NCBI GenBank assembly: GCA_016278485.1
Contig: JADQBT010000001.1
Location: 1 to 64,000, forward strand
Reading direction: 5' to 3'
DNA from: Halanaerobiales bacterium
Lineage (GTDB): Bacteria; Bacillota; Halanaerobiia; Halanaerobiales; Halanaerobiaceae
DNA length: 64,000 bases
The position numbers and the translations under genes were made by a program. The notes below the pieces were generated by a model. That model was not told the origin of the DNA. It was given only the letters and a program-made list of their open reading frames with translations, and ran no database searches. Below are positions 33,948 to 48,897 of the stretch, in pieces. Every line of letters starts with the position of its first letter. Within the stretch, counting starts at the first letter, position 1.

Positions 33948-34196
33948 AAATGTAATATCGTGCAAATGCTTTGAATAGGAGAGTAATGATTAAAATAAGT
34001 GAAAGCGAACTGGGTACGGTGAGAGCCAGCCACTTTTTAATCATGAAGATCACCTATGAGTTATCAAGCCGAAAATAAGTAGGTTTGGATCGTCTACCGG
34101 CGTTAACGGTCAATGAGATTATTTCTGTGAGAGGAATAAAATCAGGGTGGTACCGCGGTCCTTCGCCCCTGCATGGGTGAAAGGGCTTTTTTTAAT
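33948..34196 (+). promoter_or_regulatory. T-box leader, isoleucine specific
   Basis: The 345-base gap before ileS is a T-box riboswitch. Stem I elements are AGCGAACTGG and GGTGAGAGCCAG (34008-34029). The probable specifier codon is ATC (34049-34051) in the usual GAAG-ATC-ACC setting and reads isoleucine. The T-box bulge GGGTGGTACCGCGG lies at 34145-34158, and a terminator stem (34159-34188, ending in a T run to about 34193) overlaps it. Uncharged tRNA-Ile pairing with specifier and bulge would permit read-through into ileS. Both the signature and the gene downstream agree. Confidence 0.95.
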
Positions 34197-34242
34197 GTCT
34201 ATTTATTTTATAATATAAATCAAGGAAGGTGTGGATTGTAAA

Positions 34243-37023
34243 ATGGGTTATAAAGAAACAATTAATTTACCTAATACAGATTTCCCGATGCGGGCTAATC
34301 TGAGTGAAAGAGAACTGGATTTTCAAAAGTTTTGGGCGGAGAATAAAATTTACGAAAAAGCAGTTGCAAATAGGGAGGATAGTGAACCTTTTATTCTGCA
34401 TGATGGTCCTCCTTATGCCAATGGAGATATTCATATTGGGCATGCTTTAAATAAGATTTTAAAAGATATTGTGACTAGGTATAAAACATTACAGGGTTAC
34501 TATTCTCCTTATGTACCTGGTTGGGATACACATGGTCTACCTATTGAGCATCAGGTGACAAAAGATATGGGAGATGCTGCAAAAGAACTTTCAATTGAAG
34601 ATCTAAGAGAGCGTTGTACTGAATATGCTCTTAAATATGTTGAACGGCAGAAAGAACAATTTAAGCGTTTAGGTGTTTGGGGTGAATGGGAAAAACCTTA
34701 TCTGACTTTAAATCCTGAATATGAAGTAAAACAAATTGAAGTTTTTGGTGAAATGGCCAAAAAGGATCTCTTTTATAGAGGTAAAAAGCCAGTTCACTGG
34801 TGTCCAAATTGTGAAACAGCATTAGCAGAAGCTGAAGTTGAACATGGTGAGGATAGATCACCTTCAATTTATGTGAAATTTCCCGTTAAAAACGAAATGC
34901 AGGCAGGTGGAGTAACTTTAAAGCCTGAAGATAGTTATTTAGTTATCTGGACTACTACCCCCTGGACAATTCCCTCTAATTTAGCTATTACCCTCCATCC
35001 AAGTTATCCTTATGTAGTCGTAGAAGTTGCAGGGGAAAAGTTAGTAATGGCTGAAGAGTTAGTTGAATCTGTAATGAAAGTAACTGGAATTAAAGAATAC
35101 GAAGTAATAAGTGAACCTTTCAGTGGCAAAGTACTTGAAAGAAAAAAATGTGTTCATCCTTTAATGGATCGCGATTCATTGATTATTATTGGTGATCATG
35201 TTACTCTTGAGCAAGGTTCTGGTTGTGTTCACACGGCGCCAGGTCATGGTCATGAAGATTATATAGTTGGTCGTGAATATGATTTAGATATTTATGCACC
35301 GATGGATAATAAAGGATATTTTACTGAAGAAGCTAAACAATTTGCTGGCAAACACTATGATGAAGTTAATATCATGGTTACTGAAGCTTTGAAAGAGGAT
35401 AATCTATTGATGGATTTAAGTTTTATCGATCATCAATATCCACATTGTTGGCGCTGTAAGGGAAATCTTATTTTTAGAGCTACTGATCAGTGGTTTGCTT
35501 CAATTGAGGCCATCAAGGAAGAAGCCTTAAAAGCAATTCATGAAGTTGATTGGTATCCTGCCTGGGGTGAAGAACGCATGGCAAATATGATTGCTGATCG
35601 TTCTGATTGGTGTATTTCCCGCCAGAAAAAATGGGGTGTACCAATTCCTATCTATTATTGTGATGATTGTCAAGAAGCTATCATCAATGATGATACATTA
35701 GATGCTTTAAAAGAGGTTGTTGCTAAAGAAGGTTCGGGTGCCTGGTATAAATATACAGCTAGTGAACTTTTACCTAAAGGCTATCAATGTCCTCATTGTG
35801 GTGGTACCGAATTCAGTCAAGAAGAAGATATTATGGATGTCTGGTTTGATTCAGGTTCCAGTCATAAAGCTGTCCTGGAAAGCAGAGATAATCTAGAATG
35901 GCCTTCTCAGCTTTATCTAGAGGGGACTGATCAGTATCGCGGTTGGTTTAACTCTTCTCTTTTAACAGCTGTTGCAACTGAAGGTCGTGCTCCTTATCAT
36001 GAAGTCGTAACAAACGGATTTACAGTTGATAATAAGGGAATTAAGATGTCTAAATCACAAGGTAATGTTGTTTCACCATTTAAAGTTATTGACCAATATG
36101 GTGCTGATATTTTACGTCTCTGGGTAGCATCTTCTGATTTTAAAAATGATATTAGAGTTTCAGATGATATATTAAAACAGAATTCGGAAGTATATCGAAG
36201 AATAAGAAATACATTTAGATTTATTTTAGGAAATATTAGTGATTTCGTTTATGAGGATGACTATCTTCCTTATGCAGAAAGAACAGAGATTGATCGCTGG
36301 ATAATGATTAGATTACAGGAGTTAGTTCTTAAATCAACTGCAGCTTATGATAAATATGAGTACCATCGAGTTTATCATGATGTGCATAATTTCTGTACAG
36401 TAGAGATGAGTTCACTTTATGTTGATATTTCTAAAGATAGACTCTATACTGATGGAACAGCCTCTCACAGTAGAAGGGCTGCTCAGAGTACTCTTTATGA
36501 TATTTTGATGGCTCTTGTAAAACTTGTTTCACCGATTTTAATTCATACGGCTGAAGAAGTTTGGCAGTTCCTACCTGAAGCTGATTGCCCTAGTGAAAGT
36601 GTATTTCTGACAGATTGGCCGGTAGTAGATGAGAATTATCAAGATGAAGAATTAATGAAGAGATGGGAAAGATTATTAGCAATCAGAAAAGATGTTGCTA
36701 AAGCACTTGAACTAGCAAGAGCTGAAAAGGAAATAGGTAACTCACTAGATGCTCGGGTTACTCTTTACCCAGTTAATGATTCGCAAAAAGAATTTCTTTC
36801 AGATCATTTGCTACAACTTGCTGATCTCTTTATTGTCTCACAGGCTGAATTAGGTGAAGGTAAACCTGAAGAAGCTTATCAAGGACAAGAAACAAAAGTT
36901 TCTGTTAAAGTAACTTCAGCTAAGGGTGAAAAATGTGCTCGTTGTTGGAAGTTTAGTGAAACTGTAGGCGATGATGAAGAGCATGAAGATTTATGTGAAC
37001 GGTGTTCCACTGTTGTAAATTAA
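34243..37023 (+). CDS. ileS: Isoleucyl-tRNA synthetase
   Basis: The 926-residue class I synthetase charges tRNA-Ile and edits valine. HIGH is kept ([11 protein letters not shown]), as is the editing-domain [10 protein letters not shown] region, the KMSKS loop (IKMSKSQGN) and the C-terminal zinc site with paired cysteines (CARCW and CERC). ATG at 34243 gives the conserved start with [12 protein letters not shown] at 34231 overlaps the AAGGAAGGTG site. Its expression is set by the T-box upstream. Confidence 0.98.
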
Positions 37024-44409: not shown

Positions 44410-44438
44410 TTGATATATTAGATAAACTGTGCTATAAT
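44410..44438 (+). promoter_or_regulatory. Sigma-A type promoter upstream of the opine dehydrogenase/B12 operon
   Basis: TTGATA (44410-44415) and TATAAT (44433-44438) have a 17-base spacer. Transcription would start near 44445, only 25 bases before a terminator hairpin. Confidence 0.65.
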
Positions 44439-44469
44439 TAATTAGGACACTTGTAAGTTTATTTAAAAA

Positions 44470-44496
44470 AGCTCTCTAGTTAGAGGGCTTTTTTTT
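44470..44496 (+). terminator. Intrinsic terminator or attenuator in the leader
   Basis: AGCTCTCT (44470-44477) pairs with AGAGGGCT (44482-44489; one G.U) around a four-base loop and is followed by a run of eight Ts. It may end the EF-G-like transcript. Because a good promoter lies just upstream, it also attenuates, or defines, an RNA of about 50 bases. Confidence 0.75.
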
Positions 44497-44553
44497 AACT
44501 AAAAATATTGCAGGGGGTATTTTATAGTTCAATAATATGAGGAGGAAATAAAG

Positions 44554-45771
44554 ATGGAAAAGAAGAGAATTGCTGTTTTGGGTGCAGGTAATGGAGGACA
44601 GGCTTTAGCTGCTTATTTGGCCTATCAGGGTCATCAGGTTAATCTCTATAATAGAAGTCTTCCGAGAATTTCTGCCCTGCAAGAGACTGGTCAGATTAAG
44701 ATTACCGGTGTAGTAGAAGGTATAGGTTACTTAAATATTGTAACAGATCAACTTGTTAAGGCGATCGAGGGAGTGGAGATCGTTCTGGTCGTTACTCCCG
44801 CTGTCGCTCACCGTTATTTAGCCAGTAAATTAAGTAGTTGTCTAGAAGATGGGCAATTAATTATACTTAATCCTGGTCGGACAGGTGGTGCGCTTGAATT
44901 TAATAATATCTTGACAAAAAATAACTGTCAGGCTGATTTATTATTAGCTGAGGCGCAAACTTTTATTTTTGCAAGTAGAGTTGTTTCACCTGGCGAAGTT
45001 AAAATATTTGCTATTAAAAACAAAGTTGAATTAGCTGCTTTTCCTAGTAACAAAACTAAAGAGGTCTTTGCTAAATTAGATGATGTTTTACCACAATTTT
45101 TTCCTGTGGAGAATGTTTTAAAAACGAGTTTGGATAATATTGGTGCTGTTTTTCATCCTGCACCTACTCTGTTAAATATGGCCTGGATTGAATCGCGGGC
45201 GGGAGATTTTAATTATTATCAAGAAGGAGTCTCACAATCTGTTGCTAAAGTTCTTGAAAAGATAGATGAGGAACGAATGGCAGTTGCCCAAATAATTGGA
45301 GTAGAGCCAACTAGTGCTGCAGAATGGTTGAGGCTGTCTTATGGTGCAATTGGTCATAATTTGCACGAGTTACTTAATAACAATTTGAAATATGCGGGAA
45401 TTAAAGCTCCTCCAAGTACAGCACATCGTTATATTTTTGAAGATGTGCCAATGAGCTTAGTCCCAATTGCTTCTTTAGGTGATTATTTTAAGGTAGAAAC
45501 ACCAGCAATTAAGATGATTATAGACCTAGCTAATCTTGTCCATCAAACAGATTATCGGGCAACAGGCAGAACGGTAGCCTCACTTGGTATTGAGGGAATG
45601 TCTATTAATGAATTAAGAGCTTTAGTAACACATGGAAGTCTACCTAGAAAAACTGTTAAAGTACAATTTGATGAGCATTTAATTGAAGGGGTTGAAGCTG
45701 AACAGATTATGATCCCTAAATTATTGAAAAAATTAGATCAAGAAAGTGGTGTACAGAAATGGAAAAATTAA
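44554..45771 (+). CDS. NAD(P)-dependent octopine/nopaline dehydrogenase family protein
   Basis: The 405-residue protein has an N-terminal Rossmann domain with GAGNGGQAL near residue 10 and the alpha-helical opine dehydrogenase domain beyond residue 190 (SYGAIGHNLHELL, PSTAHRYIFEDVP, and RTVASLGI). Enzymes of this family reductively join an amino acid to a keto acid, or oxidise such products. The substrate is unknown. GAGGAGG precedes the ATG. The last 13 bases overlap the start of the cobalamin-binding gene, so the two proteins are almost certainly made together and probably act on linked substrates. Confidence 0.85.
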   Translation: MEKKRIAVLGAGNGGQALAAYLAYQGHQVNLYNRSLPRISALQETGQIKITGVVEGIGYLNIVTDQLVKAIEGVEIVLVVTPAVAHRYLASKLSSCLEDGQLIILNPGRTGGALEFNNILTKNNCQADLLLAEAQTFIFASRVVSPGEVKIFAIKNKVELAAFPSNKTKEVFAKLDDVLPQFFPVENVLKTSLDNIGAVFHPAPTLLNMAWIESRAGDFNYYQEGVSQSVAKVLEKIDEERMAVAQIIGVEPTSAAEWLRLSYGAIGHNLHELLNNNLKYAGIKAPPSTAHRYIFEDVPMSLVPIASLGDYFKVETPAIKMIIDLANLVHQTDYRATGRTVASLGIEGMSINELRALVTHGSLPRKTVKVQFDEHLIEGVEAEQIMIPKLLKKLDQESGVQKWKN

Positions 45772-47390
45772 TAATTGGTGCCTCAATTGGAAATTGTGTT
45801 CATGTAGGTGGGGTTAGTAATTTTTTGCAACTGGCCCGGCAGAGAGGTTATCAAACAAAATTTCTGGGACCCGCGGTTAAGATAGATTATTTACTTGATG
45901 CTGTACAAGAAAGTGAACCAGAGGTGGTAGCTGTAGGCTACCGCCTTACTCCAGAGACGGCAGAAAGGGTCTTAAACAAACTAAAGGATAGTGTAGAAGA
46001 AAGAGGGTTAACAAAATTTAAATATATTTTTGGAGGAACCCTGCCGGTTGCTAATGTAGCGAAAAAGGTAGGGCTTTTTGATGTAGTTTTCAGTGGAGAA
46101 GAAACACTTGCAGAAATTATTGCTTTTCTTGATGGAAAAGAACCTGAGCAGATTGCAGAAAATTATGCAGATAATTTATTAGATAGAATTGCAGATAAAA
46201 AACCATATCCACTAATTAGACATCATTATGGTCAGCCGACTATGGAGGCTACCCTGTCAGGTATTAAAAAAATTGCTAAAAGTAAAGTTGTTGATATTAT
46301 TTCGCTTGGTCCAGATCAAAATGCACAGGAGTCATTTTTTAGACCAGCCGAAATGAATGAAACGGAAAAAGGAGCAGGTGGAGTACCAATCAGGACAGCA
46401 AAAGATTTGCAAAATCTTTATAAAGCTAGTCGTTATGGGAACTTTCCGCTTTTAAGAAGTTATAGTGGGACAAGAGATGTTTTTAAAATGGCTAAATTAT
46501 TAATTGAAACAATAAATAATGCCTGGGCTGCAGTACCATTATCCTGGTATAATGAATTAGATGGGCGAGGTCCACGCGATCTTTTAACTGGCATAAAAGA
46601 GAATCAGGAGTTAATGAGATGGCATGGAAAAAATAATATTCCAGTTGAGGTAAATGAAGCTCATCATTGGAGTTTGCGTGATGCCCATGATACAATAGCA
46701 GTGGCAATGGCTTATCTAGGCGCTTACAACGCCAAAAAAATGGGAGTTAAAGATTTTATTGCACAATATATGTTTAATAATCCTGCTCAGACTTCTGGGC
46801 CAATGGATCTGGCAAAAATGCTGGCCAAAAAAGAGTTAATTGAGAGTCTGGTTGATAAAGAATTTAAAGTATATACTCAGGTTAGGGCAGGACTTGCTAG
46901 TTTTCCGCTAGATCTTGATCGAGCAAAAGGTCAACTTGCATATGCAACATTTCTGGGTATGGCACTTGAGCCTGATTTAGTACATGTGGTGGGTTTTTCA
47001 GAAGCTGACCATGCAGCACGAGCAGGAGATGTAATAGAAAGTTGTAAAATCGCCAGTCAAGTTATATATAATTCTATTGCAGGTTATCCGGATTTTCTTA
47101 AAGATCAAACGATACAGAAACGCAAAGATCAATTGTTAGAAGAAGCAGATATTTTATTAGAAGCAATTAAGAACTTAGGGTCTCCGCAAGAGAGCGACTC
47201 ATTGGCTAGCCCGGAAGTTCTTGCTAGAGCTATTAAAAGTGGTTTGCTTGATGCTCCTCATCTGCAAGGAAATCAAGTTGCTGCTGGTAAGCTTGAAACT
47301 AAAATGGTTAATGGTGCTTGTTATGCATATGATTTTAGTAAAGATAAGGTTTTAACAGAATCAGCAAGAATAATTCAATTGAGTAATTAA
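45759..47390 (+). CDS. Cobalamin-binding protein with glutamate-mutase-like barrel domain
   Basis: The 543-residue protein starts with a B12-binding Rossmann domain (residues 1-140). The family pattern D-x-H-x-x-G is present as CVHVGG at 13-18, so His15, the expected cobalt ligand, is kept while the aspartate is replaced by cysteine. The S-x-L position is YRL at 61-63 and the GG pair is at 92-93, at standard distances. Residues 160-540 resemble the catalytic barrel of glutamate mutase E and related aminomutases (NEAHHWSLRDAHD, MFNNPAQTSGPMDLAKML). It may rearrange the carbon skeleton or amino group of a substrate linked to the overlapping opine-type dehydrogenase. The reaction is unknown, and annotation as methionine synthase would be wrong. 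Confidence 0.8.
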   Translation: MEKLIIGASIGNCVHVGGVSNFLQLARQRGYQTKFLGPAVKIDYLLDAVQESEPEVVAVGYRLTPETAERVLNKLKDSVEERGLTKFKYIFGGTLPVANVAKKVGLFDVVFSGEETLAEIIAFLDGKEPEQIAENYADNLLDRIADKKPYPLIRHHYGQPTMEATLSGIKKIAKSKVVDIISLGPDQNAQESFFRPAEMNETEKGAGGVPIRTAKDLQNLYKASRYGNFPLLRSYSGTRDVFKMAKLLIETINNAWAAVPLSWYNELDGRGPRDLLTGIKENQELMRWHGKNNIPVEVNEAHHWSLRDAHDTIAVAMAYLGAYNAKKMGVKDFIAQYMFNNPAQTSGPMDLAKMLAKKELIESLVDKEFKVYTQVRAGLASFPLDLDRAKGQLAYATFLGMALEPDLVHVVGFSEADHAARAGDVIESCKIASQVIYNSIAGYPDFLKDQTIQKRKDQLLEEADILLEAIKNLGSPQESDSLASPEVLARAIKSGLLDAPHLQGNQVAAGKLETKMVNGACYAYDFSKDKVLTESARIIQLSN

Positions 47391-47406
47391 TGTCAGGAGG
47401 AATTTT

Positions 47407-48897
47407 ATGAGTAGCGCCTTGGCAATTTTGGCTGCAATTTTATATATCATACCATATTTTAAACCGGATTTATTTTTAATTAGTTTCTTTTCTTTTTTAC
47501 CGTTACTATTTGCCTTAGAGGGAGAAGAAGGAAAACGAACATTCTTTTTTGGTTGGTTGATGGGAATCGGTATTTTGGCTGGTACAGGTTATTGGTTATA
47601 TTTTCCTCTGGCCGATTTTAGTGATCTTTCTATGTCAGTCGTTTTTTTAATACTTTTTACCACTATAATTATTGGTGGCCTTTACTTTGGACTATGGTCT
47701 CTAATTCATAATTTTATGCAGCCTAAGCATAGTTTTAGCCCATTTATTTTTGCTTTTTCCTGGACAGGATTTGAATTTATCCGATATTATTGGCTAAATA
47801 TTTATCCGTTTGGATATCTTGGTTATAGTCAATTTCGGAATAAATGGGTATTACAATTTGCTTCTTATGGAGGCGTTTTATTAGTTTCTTTTGTAGTAGC
47901 CTTGGTGGCTGGTTATTTATTTAAAATAATTAAAAAAAATTCCATGAAGAGAATGGTGCCACTTCTAATTTTAATTTTGGTAATAGCGATAGTAGGAAAC
48001 CTACCGAGCAAAGTAGACGGGAATAATTATTTAAAAGTAGGTATTATTCCGACTGAATTCAATCAGGAAGATAAGTGGCGTCCCGAATTTGTGAATCAAA
48101 TTGTCGAAAAAATTGGCAATGCAGCAGATCAACTCACTGGTGCTGATTTAATAATAACACCGGAAACCTCACTTACTTTTGATCTGATCAAAAATGAATT
48201 TTACCGGGAGATGTTTTTTAATAAAATTGAAAAGGTAGATAGTTATTTAGTAGTTGGTAGTCGTGCTATCAAAGATGGTGATTCTGATAGGAAAGAGTAT
48301 AATAGTAATTTTTTGCTAGCACCTGGAGGAAAAGTTATAGATCGCTATGATAAACAAAAACCTTTAATCTTTGGAGAATATATTCCCTTTGCAAATTTTG
48401 TAGAAAGATTAACCGGTTATGCAATAATTCCTATATTTCCAGGTGATTCGGATTTAATCTTTTCCACTCAACGTTTTAGTTGGTTGAATTTAATTTGTTC
48501 AGAGATTTTAGACCCAGTCTCAAAAAAGGTTGCTAAAAATTATCAGTTTATTGCTAATCAATCAAATGAAGCATGGTTTGGAGATGCAAATTTACAAATA
48601 CAGATGTGGGGAGTCTCGGTTTTTAGAGCTGTGGAAAGCAGGAAGTCTGTTGTTAGAGCAGGTAATCAGGCTATTTCTGGTTATATTTCTCCCTTAGGAA
48701 ATGAGATAGTAATGCAGCAAGATAATAACTCTCCCTTCATGGTAAATATTATTTTAAATCAGAAAACAACCTTTTACCAGAGGAAGGGAGAATTAATTGG
48801 AATTATCATTACTCTTCTAGCATTATTGATTTTTATTATTAAATTTATTCTTTATCTGCGCAAGCTTTTAATTAATTCTGCATCAGGATCAATGTAG
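47407..48897 (+). CDS. lnt: Apolipoprotein N-acyltransferase
   Basis: The 496-residue membrane enzyme adds the third acyl chain to lipoproteins. Six or so N-terminal helices precede a nitrilase-like domain starting near residue 210, and one helix ends the protein. The catalytic triad can be placed: glutamate in TPETSLTF, lysine in DKQKPLIFGEYIPF, and cysteine in NLICSEIL. Lnt is typical of bacteria with an outer membrane and rare in classical monoderm Firmicutes. It follows the cobalamin gene by 16 bases with AGGAGG, so it seems to share that transcript. Its end overlaps rqcH on the other strand by 46 bases. Confidence 0.9.
   Translation: MSSALAILAAILYIIPYFKPDLFLISFFSFLPLLFALEGEEGKRTFFFGWLMGIGILAGTGYWLYFPLADFSDLSMSVVFLILFTTIIIGGLYFGLWSLIHNFMQPKHSFSPFIFAFSWTGFEFIRYYWLNIYPFGYLGYSQFRNKWVLQFASYGGVLLVSFVVALVAGYLFKIIKKNSMKRMVPLLILILVIAIVGNLPSKVDGNNYLKVGIIPTEFNQEDKWRPEFVNQIVEKIGNAADQLTGADLIITPETSLTFDLIKNEFYREMFFNKIEKVDSYLVVGSRAIKDGDSDRKEYNSNFLLAPGGKVIDRYDKQKPLIFGEYIPFANFVERLTGYAIIPIFPGDSDLIFSTQRFSWLNLICSEILDPVSKKVAKNYQFIANQSNEAWFGDANLQIQMWGVSVFRAVESRKSVVRAGNQAISGYISPLGNEIVMQQDNNSPFMVNIILNQKTTFYQRKGELIGIIITLLALLIFIIKFILYLRKLLINSASGSM

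Follow-up and report, generated by a model that had tools for sequence, protein, structure and literature searches.

A conserved gene pair of a B12-dependent mutase-like protein and an opine-type dehydrogenase, with a tentative role in osmolyte synthesis

The gene pair and its predicted proteins

In a 64,000-nucleotide stretch of a Halanaerobiales genome (assembly GCA_016278485.1, contig JADQBT010000001.1, positions 1 to 64,000 of the forward strand; hereafter the window), a gene for an opine-dehydrogenase-type oxidoreductase runs into a gene for a single-chain, B12-dependent mutase-like protein (Table 1). We provide evidence that mutase and dehydrogenase form a real conserved pair in two phyla, and that in many relatives their operon is headed by a riboswitch for cyclic di-adenosine monophosphate (c-di-AMP). 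The overlap of the two reading frames agrees with the original prediction for this DNA, made from the sequence alone, as do the N-terminal B12 domain, the glutamate-mutase-like second domain, and the histidine, YRL, GG and cysteine positions described below.

The mutase was modelled with AlphaFold2 (AF2) from 38 family members (mean predicted local distance difference test score 91.8), and the model has its B12-binding Rossmann domain in front of the barrel, within one chain. This N-terminal domain matches PF02310 (41.8 bits against a cut-off of 32.1), and aligns to 4jgi with Z 16.7 over 120 residues; free-standing cobalamin proteins give Z 16-17. The barrel aligns to glutamate mutase E (1cb7_B) with Z 33.1 over 377 residues and a root-mean-square deviation of 3.1 (VIA-align). 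Glutamate mutase E is also the best Foldseek match in the PDB (3e-17), and lysine 5,6- and ornithine 4,5-aminomutases are the next structural matches (Z 28-31). At the level of sequence, the match to MutE (PF06368) is weak (29.3 bits against 26.6), identity to glutamate mutase E is about 17%, and the profile alignment in which we sought the GlmE substrate residues R66, R100, R149 and E171 is itself weak (hhalign 16%).

In an alignment of 38 mutase family members, His15 and Gly18 are invariant, Cys13 is nearly invariant, and the barrel carries a full set of invariant polar residues. The family motif thus takes the form C-V-H-V-x-G, followed in the window protein by YRL at residues 61-63 and GG at 92-93, and GECVHVAG occurs in all 12 further Chloroflexota loci. 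The DxHxxG motif of His-on B12 proteins is matched at its histidine and glycine (H15, G18) and lacks its aspartate in the window protein and most members. The canonical aspartate is found at loci L097, L108 and L110 (L and G numbers are our handles for loci and genomes), and at L120 and L123 of a divergent subgroup. These Asp-bearing rows are scattered on the tree, where they force at least three changes; L120 and L121 sit on long branches and their own positions are unsure. Cysteine and aspartate therefore appear exchangeable in this family, which argues that cobalamin would still be bound through His15. The divergent subgroup of L120 and L123 (about 30-33% identity) has its own dehydrogenase, and the L123 mutase is apparently split into two frames.

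These features suggest that the protein works like a B12 radical mutase. We do not file it as a glutamate mutase, because the B12 domain (residues 1-127) shares a chain with the barrel in place of a separate S subunit, the motif aspartate is absent and its catalysis is as yet a prediction. Nor do we file it as an aminomutase, because no conserved lysine for pyridoxal phosphate (PLP) is apparent: residues 1-142 of the 38 aligned members hold no invariant lysine. In ornithine aminomutase, Lys629 is reported to bind PLP (PMC4256349). Elsewhere in the window genome, glutamate mutase and ornithine aminomutase each have a complete operon, and thus the pair constitutes a third mutase lineage in this organism. 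In the former (L139, G000:C28, 7141-11303), a glutamate racemase-like gene (MurI) directly adjoins the glutamate mutase S, L and E genes. An apparent mutase-Crp fusion in L048 was set aside as probably an assembly effect, since an ambiguous residue falls within the joined open reading frame (ORF), and the two genes are separate in close relatives.

By its sequence, the dehydrogenase qualifies as a member of the opine dehydrogenase family, with the C-terminal domain included (Octopine_DH, 158.8 bits; cut-off 30). Its nearest solved relative is N-(1-D-carboxylethyl)-L-norvaline dehydrogenase (CENDH, PDB 1bg6; phmmer 4e-81), to which it aligns almost end to end. H201 and D297, invariant among the orthologues, align in 1bg6 with the catalytic histidine and aspartate of CENDH, a pair that the window enzyme keeps. 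Where CENDH has an aspartate after the second strand, this family has NR[S/T] (NRS in the window). In Rossmann enzymes, such residues after the second strand tend to go with the phosphorylated nicotinamide cofactor, which suggests that the dehydrogenase uses NADP(H). It further differs from CENDH in having a nearly constant mutase partner and, in many relatives, riboswitch control.

Table 1. Features at the mutase-dehydrogenase locus, in window coordinates
Feature	Position	Strand	Basis
Promoter-like element TTGATA-17-TATAAT with TG extension, 5' of pair	44410-44438	+	consensus match only
Leader hairpin then run of Ts, terminator- or attenuator-like, between promoter and dehydrogenase gene	44465-44494	+	RNA fold
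Opine-dehydrogenase-type oxidoreductase gene, 405 aa	44554-45771	+	ORF
Reading-frame overlap dehydrogenase/mutase, 13 bases	45759-45771	+	ORF coordinates, sequence
Single-chain B12-dependent mutase-like gene, 543 aa	45759-47390	+	ORF
Predicted B12-binding (Rossmann) domain, residues 1-127	45759-46139	+	PF02310 at residues 5-120, structural match
Putative cobalt-ligand motif C13-V-H15-V-G-G18, Cys in place of Asp	45795-45812	+	family conservation
Predicted glutamate-mutase-E-like barrel and C-terminal part, residues 135-541	46161-47381	+	VIA-align
lnt (apolipoprotein N-acyltransferase), co-directional	47407-48897	+	TIGR00546, 212 bits against cut-off 132.9

Pairing, regulation and neighbours across genomes

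We surveyed a phylum sample of 398 genomes, in which the mutase occurs in 87 and a close dehydrogenase in 107. The dehydrogenase is present in 84 of the 87 mutase-bearing genomes and in 23 of the 311 others (Fisher p 2e-60), so that about a fifth of the sampled genomes carry the pair. The three exceptions comprise a partial dehydrogenase at a contig end (G273), a fragment (G220) and a divergent dehydrogenase next door (G137). The two genes are adjacent in nearly all of 54 loci, with gaps mostly below 100 nt and often a 4-base overlap; the dehydrogenases of several GC-rich loci were located by tblastn. Additionally, the mutase is found in 16 of 301 Chloroflexota genomes, often with the gene order reversed (L039, L040, L042), and the pair is kept in 12 of 12 further Chloroflexota loci. 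The original prediction had held that homologues occurring mostly apart would refute its reading, and they do not occur so; its proposal that a B12 enzyme not yet described is tied to an opine-type redox partner is supported by this co-occurrence and by the glutamate-mutase-like barrel. None of the literature searched connects opine dehydrogenase with either glutamate mutase or ydaO, the gene lists of the primary ydaO papers lying outside that search. One genome has a very close dehydrogenase (G070:C103:20319-21404, L164; 577 bits) and is the sole such genome with no mutase match; no riboswitch was found there.

Five Rfam scans for leader RNAs took in 42 loci, about 700 kb in all. The c-di-AMP (ydaO) riboswitch, RF00379, gave 20 matches, of which 19 lead the pair's operon in the same orientation. 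These 19 represent 18 loci, since L097 has two copies in tandem; the remaining match stands before the adjacent asnB in L092. Outside the window's class, the riboswitch heads the operon in 18 of 40 loci; this is the usable figure, as a further count of 20 of 27 comes from genomes partly picked for the riboswitch and is not a frequency. In two genomes the riboswitch goes with a dehydrogenase gene detached from the mutase (G324, RF00379 at 173553-173702 and gene at 172336-173421; G358, RF00379 at 3417038-3417181 and gene at 3417322-3418395).

Further copies of the riboswitch in these genomes precede genes for TrkH/TrkA potassium uptake, an AA_permease_2-family transporter, peptide transporters, NlpC/P60, LysM and CAP cell-wall proteins (hydrolases among them), an AsnB and a GATase_2 protein. 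These genes agree with the published description of the class, which covers K+ and amino acid transport, the cell wall and osmotic shock (PMC7266159); c-di-AMP is also reported to control the counter-ion pools of glutamate and aspartate (PMC8092236). In G388 (L150, L151, L092), riboswitches precede a GATase_2 (glutamate synthase-type) region, two asnB genes and the pair, a set suggesting that one branch of the c-di-AMP regulon deals with nitrogen and osmolytes. Near the pair's operon in one genome lies an ornate, large, extremophilic (OLE) RNA (L124, 4172-4824; 474 bits).

MutL, the reactivase family of glutamate mutase, adjoins the pair in L088, L095, L100 and L110, and by coordinates in G270, G315, G361 and G379. 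In L121 (1233 aa) and L122 (1214 aa) it is fused to the mutase C-terminus, with a divergent dehydrogenase next door. Such adjacency and fusion in relatives supports adenosylcobalamin radical chemistry. MutL is also more frequent in mutase-bearing genomes (60 of 80) than in others (28 of 80; p 6e-7), and a 5'-deoxyadenosine deaminase gene lies directly 5' of the pair in L104. In the window itself, no mutase small subunit or reactivase lies near the pair, as originally noted; the genome has two MutL genes elsewhere. A 1268-aa open frame surrounds the mutase match in the Chloroflexota contig G628:C45, a size similar to that of the MutL fusions.

We scanned 100 proteins encoded near the pair outside the window's class; asparagine synthase (7), D-Ala-D-Ala ligase C-domain (7) and MutL (4) were the families met most often, followed by Mur ligase domains (3), DapF (2) and MatE (2). 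No lyase, dehydratase, CoA ligase or thiolase, and no fermentation gene, is among the families that recur near the pair. The asparagine synthase neighbours tested are ordinary AsnB by NCBIfam (above the asparagine synthase B cut-off), with 271-295 bits against the 570.1 cut-off of the AsnO-type model TIGR03104. The Ddl-like neighbours score below the Ddl cut-offs; they adjoin the pair at six loci (L100, L101, L105, L106, L109, L113) and stand beside it by coordinates in six genomes (G191, G244, G268, G284, G327, G400). Most genomes with such a gene have a better-scoring Ddl elsewhere, so the linked ATP-grasp ligase is a paralogue, which probably makes another dipeptide. A true murD adjoins the pair in L110 and L113, and DapF is near it in L087 and L103, with DapL also in L087.

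Leader, lnt and other features of the window

The promoter-like element 5' of the pair matches 11 of 12 consensus positions and is the best among 32 hits in the scanned region. The hairpin that follows is stable in the RNA fold of the leader (13-bp stem), and was not seen in the other Halanaerobiales leaders compared. Leaders of the dehydrogenase gene from the window (44440-44553) and from L037, L043, L044 and L046 share a G-run then TTTT about 25 nt before the ribosome-binding site, as well as two purine-rich sites in tandem. Rfam gave no sign of cobalamin or T-box control of the window operon; the window's only T-box leader (33962-34173, 112 bits) lies directly 5' of an isoleucyl-tRNA-synthetase-like gene (ileS, 34231-37023). 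A Crp-type regulator gene stands 3' of the mutase in many Halanaerobiales loci, and we infer that this lineage controls the operon by means other than an RNA switch. No plasmid match was found when plasmid carriage was considered.

The original prediction had placed the pair in one unit with lnt. The genes are indeed co-directional, lnt starting 16 bases past the mutase stop, but lnt lies directly 3' of the pair in Halanaerobiales loci only and is probably an incidental neighbour. Functional roles for the lnt, EF-G-like and RqcH neighbours were likewise set aside: linkage of the pair to lnt and RqcH is seen in Halanaerobiales, and RqcH is rarely near it elsewhere (NFACT in 3 of the 100 neighbours scanned).

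Proposed function and rival explanations

From the computed architecture, pairing and regulation, we propose cofactor use, an order of steps and a product. Under our preferred reading, to which we give a little less than an even chance, dehydrogenase and mutase act in sequence as an NADPH-linked, B12-dependent biosynthetic module for an amino-acid-derived osmolyte or counter-ion. The mutase would bind adenosylcobalamin base-off/His-on through His15, with Cys13 tuning the histidine, and would form a deoxyadenosyl radical to rearrange a glutamate- or aspartate-derived substrate, either an amino acid or an opine. Before or after this step, the dehydrogenase would use NADPH to join an amine and a 2-oxo acid reductively. 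The product, most likely an organic osmolyte or K+ counter-ion, would be made at low c-di-AMP, and the module would belong to an osmotic/cell-envelope regulon. In some lineages, AsnB or the ATP-grasp ligase may amidate the product or link it into a dipeptide, as in the pathway for N-acetylglutaminylglutamine amide (NAGGN).

Known systems resemble this module in parts. Glutamate mutase (GlmS/GlmE with GlmL/MutL) shares the barrel fold, the B12 Rossmann domain and, in some relatives of the window protein, a MutL beside or fused to the mutase; the window protein differs in its fused N-terminal B12 domain, cysteine for aspartate, low identity, opine-type partner and regulation. The ornithine 4,5- and lysine 5,6-aminomutases belong to the same barrel superfamily, and the aligned B12 domains of the window protein and of OraE from the same genome are similar (hhalign 91%), whereas the window protein has the reversed domain order, no invariant PLP lysine in its B12 domain and no small subunit. 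In pyrrolysine biosynthesis, a radical mutase, an ATP-grasp ligase and an NAD(P) dehydrogenase (PylB, PylC, PylD) act in sequence on amino acids, PylB being a radical SAM enzyme. The analogy lies in the enzyme set, since the mutases are not homologous and only some pair loci have the ligase. The NAGGN pathway (AsnO/Ngg) makes an osmolyte from glutamine with an asparagine synthase-type amidotransferase and a GNAT/peptide-bond enzyme (PMC8070244). It differs in that the pair's AsnB neighbours are ordinary and NAGGN synthesis has neither a B12 mutase nor an opine dehydrogenase.

Several observations weigh against a c-di-AMP-controlled osmolyte module. RF00379 was not found 5' of the pair in the window or in the other Halanaerobiales or Chloroflexota loci scanned, and about half of the 40 loci elsewhere lack it; the window operon being without the riboswitch, the function of the window pair is read from its relatives. 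Cysteine in place of aspartate could in principle mean a different cobalamin mode, and MutL is missing from 20 of 80 mutase-bearing genomes, so that a reactivase is neither universal nor obligatory. The NADPH preference is drawn from one sequence motif. Additionally, a role in building the cell wall could explain the murD, dapF/dapL and Ddl-like neighbours just as well.

The last point leads to the strongest rival, which we nonetheless consider unlikely: that the product is a non-standard amino acid of the envelope, such as a peptidoglycan stem or cross-bridge residue, which a Ddl-like ligase joins and AsnB-type enzymes amidate. The murD, DapF and DapL neighbours, the Ddl-like paralogues beside the pair, the cell-wall hydrolases in the c-di-AMP regulon and the lnt gene 3' of the pair in Halanaerobiales all fit such a product. 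However, paralogues of Mur ligases or transferases are not widespread companions of the pair, its AsnB neighbours are ordinary, and most relatives, whose walls are presumably ordinary, do without the pair. Replacement of glutamate racemase was also considered and rejected, as MurI is missing at similar rates in genomes with the mutase (12 of 87) and without it (31 of 311).

The original prediction had raised amino acid breakdown as a possible setting. On this view the pair would serve a fermentation or breakdown step, with B12-dependent rearrangement of an amino acid or imine and its oxidation by NAD. Many hosts are anaerobes, and the related glutamate mutase and ornithine aminomutase, both present in the window genome, are catabolic. 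We now regard this as improbable: c-di-AMP riboswitch control in many relatives and neighbours that are not fermentation genes (AsnB, an ATP-grasp ligase and MutL recur, lyases, dehydratases, CoA ligases and thiolases do not) point to a biosynthetic pathway, and the NR[S/T] motif is of the NADP type. A little less probable still is an ordinary glutamate mutase isoform with a fused B12 subunit, making 3-methylaspartate on which the dehydrogenase would act. The closest fold and the MutL adjacency and fusion agree with an isoform, whereas the low identity, a score of 21 bits against a cut-off of 110 for the NCBIfam methylaspartate mutase S model, the weak MutE profile alignment, in which the usual substrate-binding residues are not clearly kept, and the full GlmS/L/E operon already in the genome do not. 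The cysteine found at the aspartate position in most members could also mark a protein that regulates and does not catalyse, its B12 domain being a sensor or having lost its cobalt chemistry. We give this very little weight, given the invariant His15 and barrel residues, the recurrence of aspartate in scattered members, and reactivase fusion and adjacency.

Returning to the osmolyte module, we tentatively suggest, at somewhat lower odds than for the module itself, that the mutase family forms a new class of adenosylcobalamin radical enzyme and, together with the NADPH-using opine-type dehydrogenase, produces an amino-acid-derived osmolyte whose synthesis c-di-AMP controls. If this is true, the mutase would perform a carbon-skeleton rearrangement not described before, and, as far as the searched literature and general knowledge go, no B12-dependent step would have been known in the c-di-AMP osmotic regulon until now. 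To our knowledge, few adenosylcobalamin radical mutases have been recognized. The riboswitch would provide a handle: manipulating c-di-AMP may switch the operon on or off, and comparing metabolomes may then reveal the metabolite. Occurrence in 87 of 398 genomes, with a near-constant redox partner and a frequent c-di-AMP riboswitch, would imply an unrecognized metabolite in the osmotic or envelope homeostasis of these bacteria.

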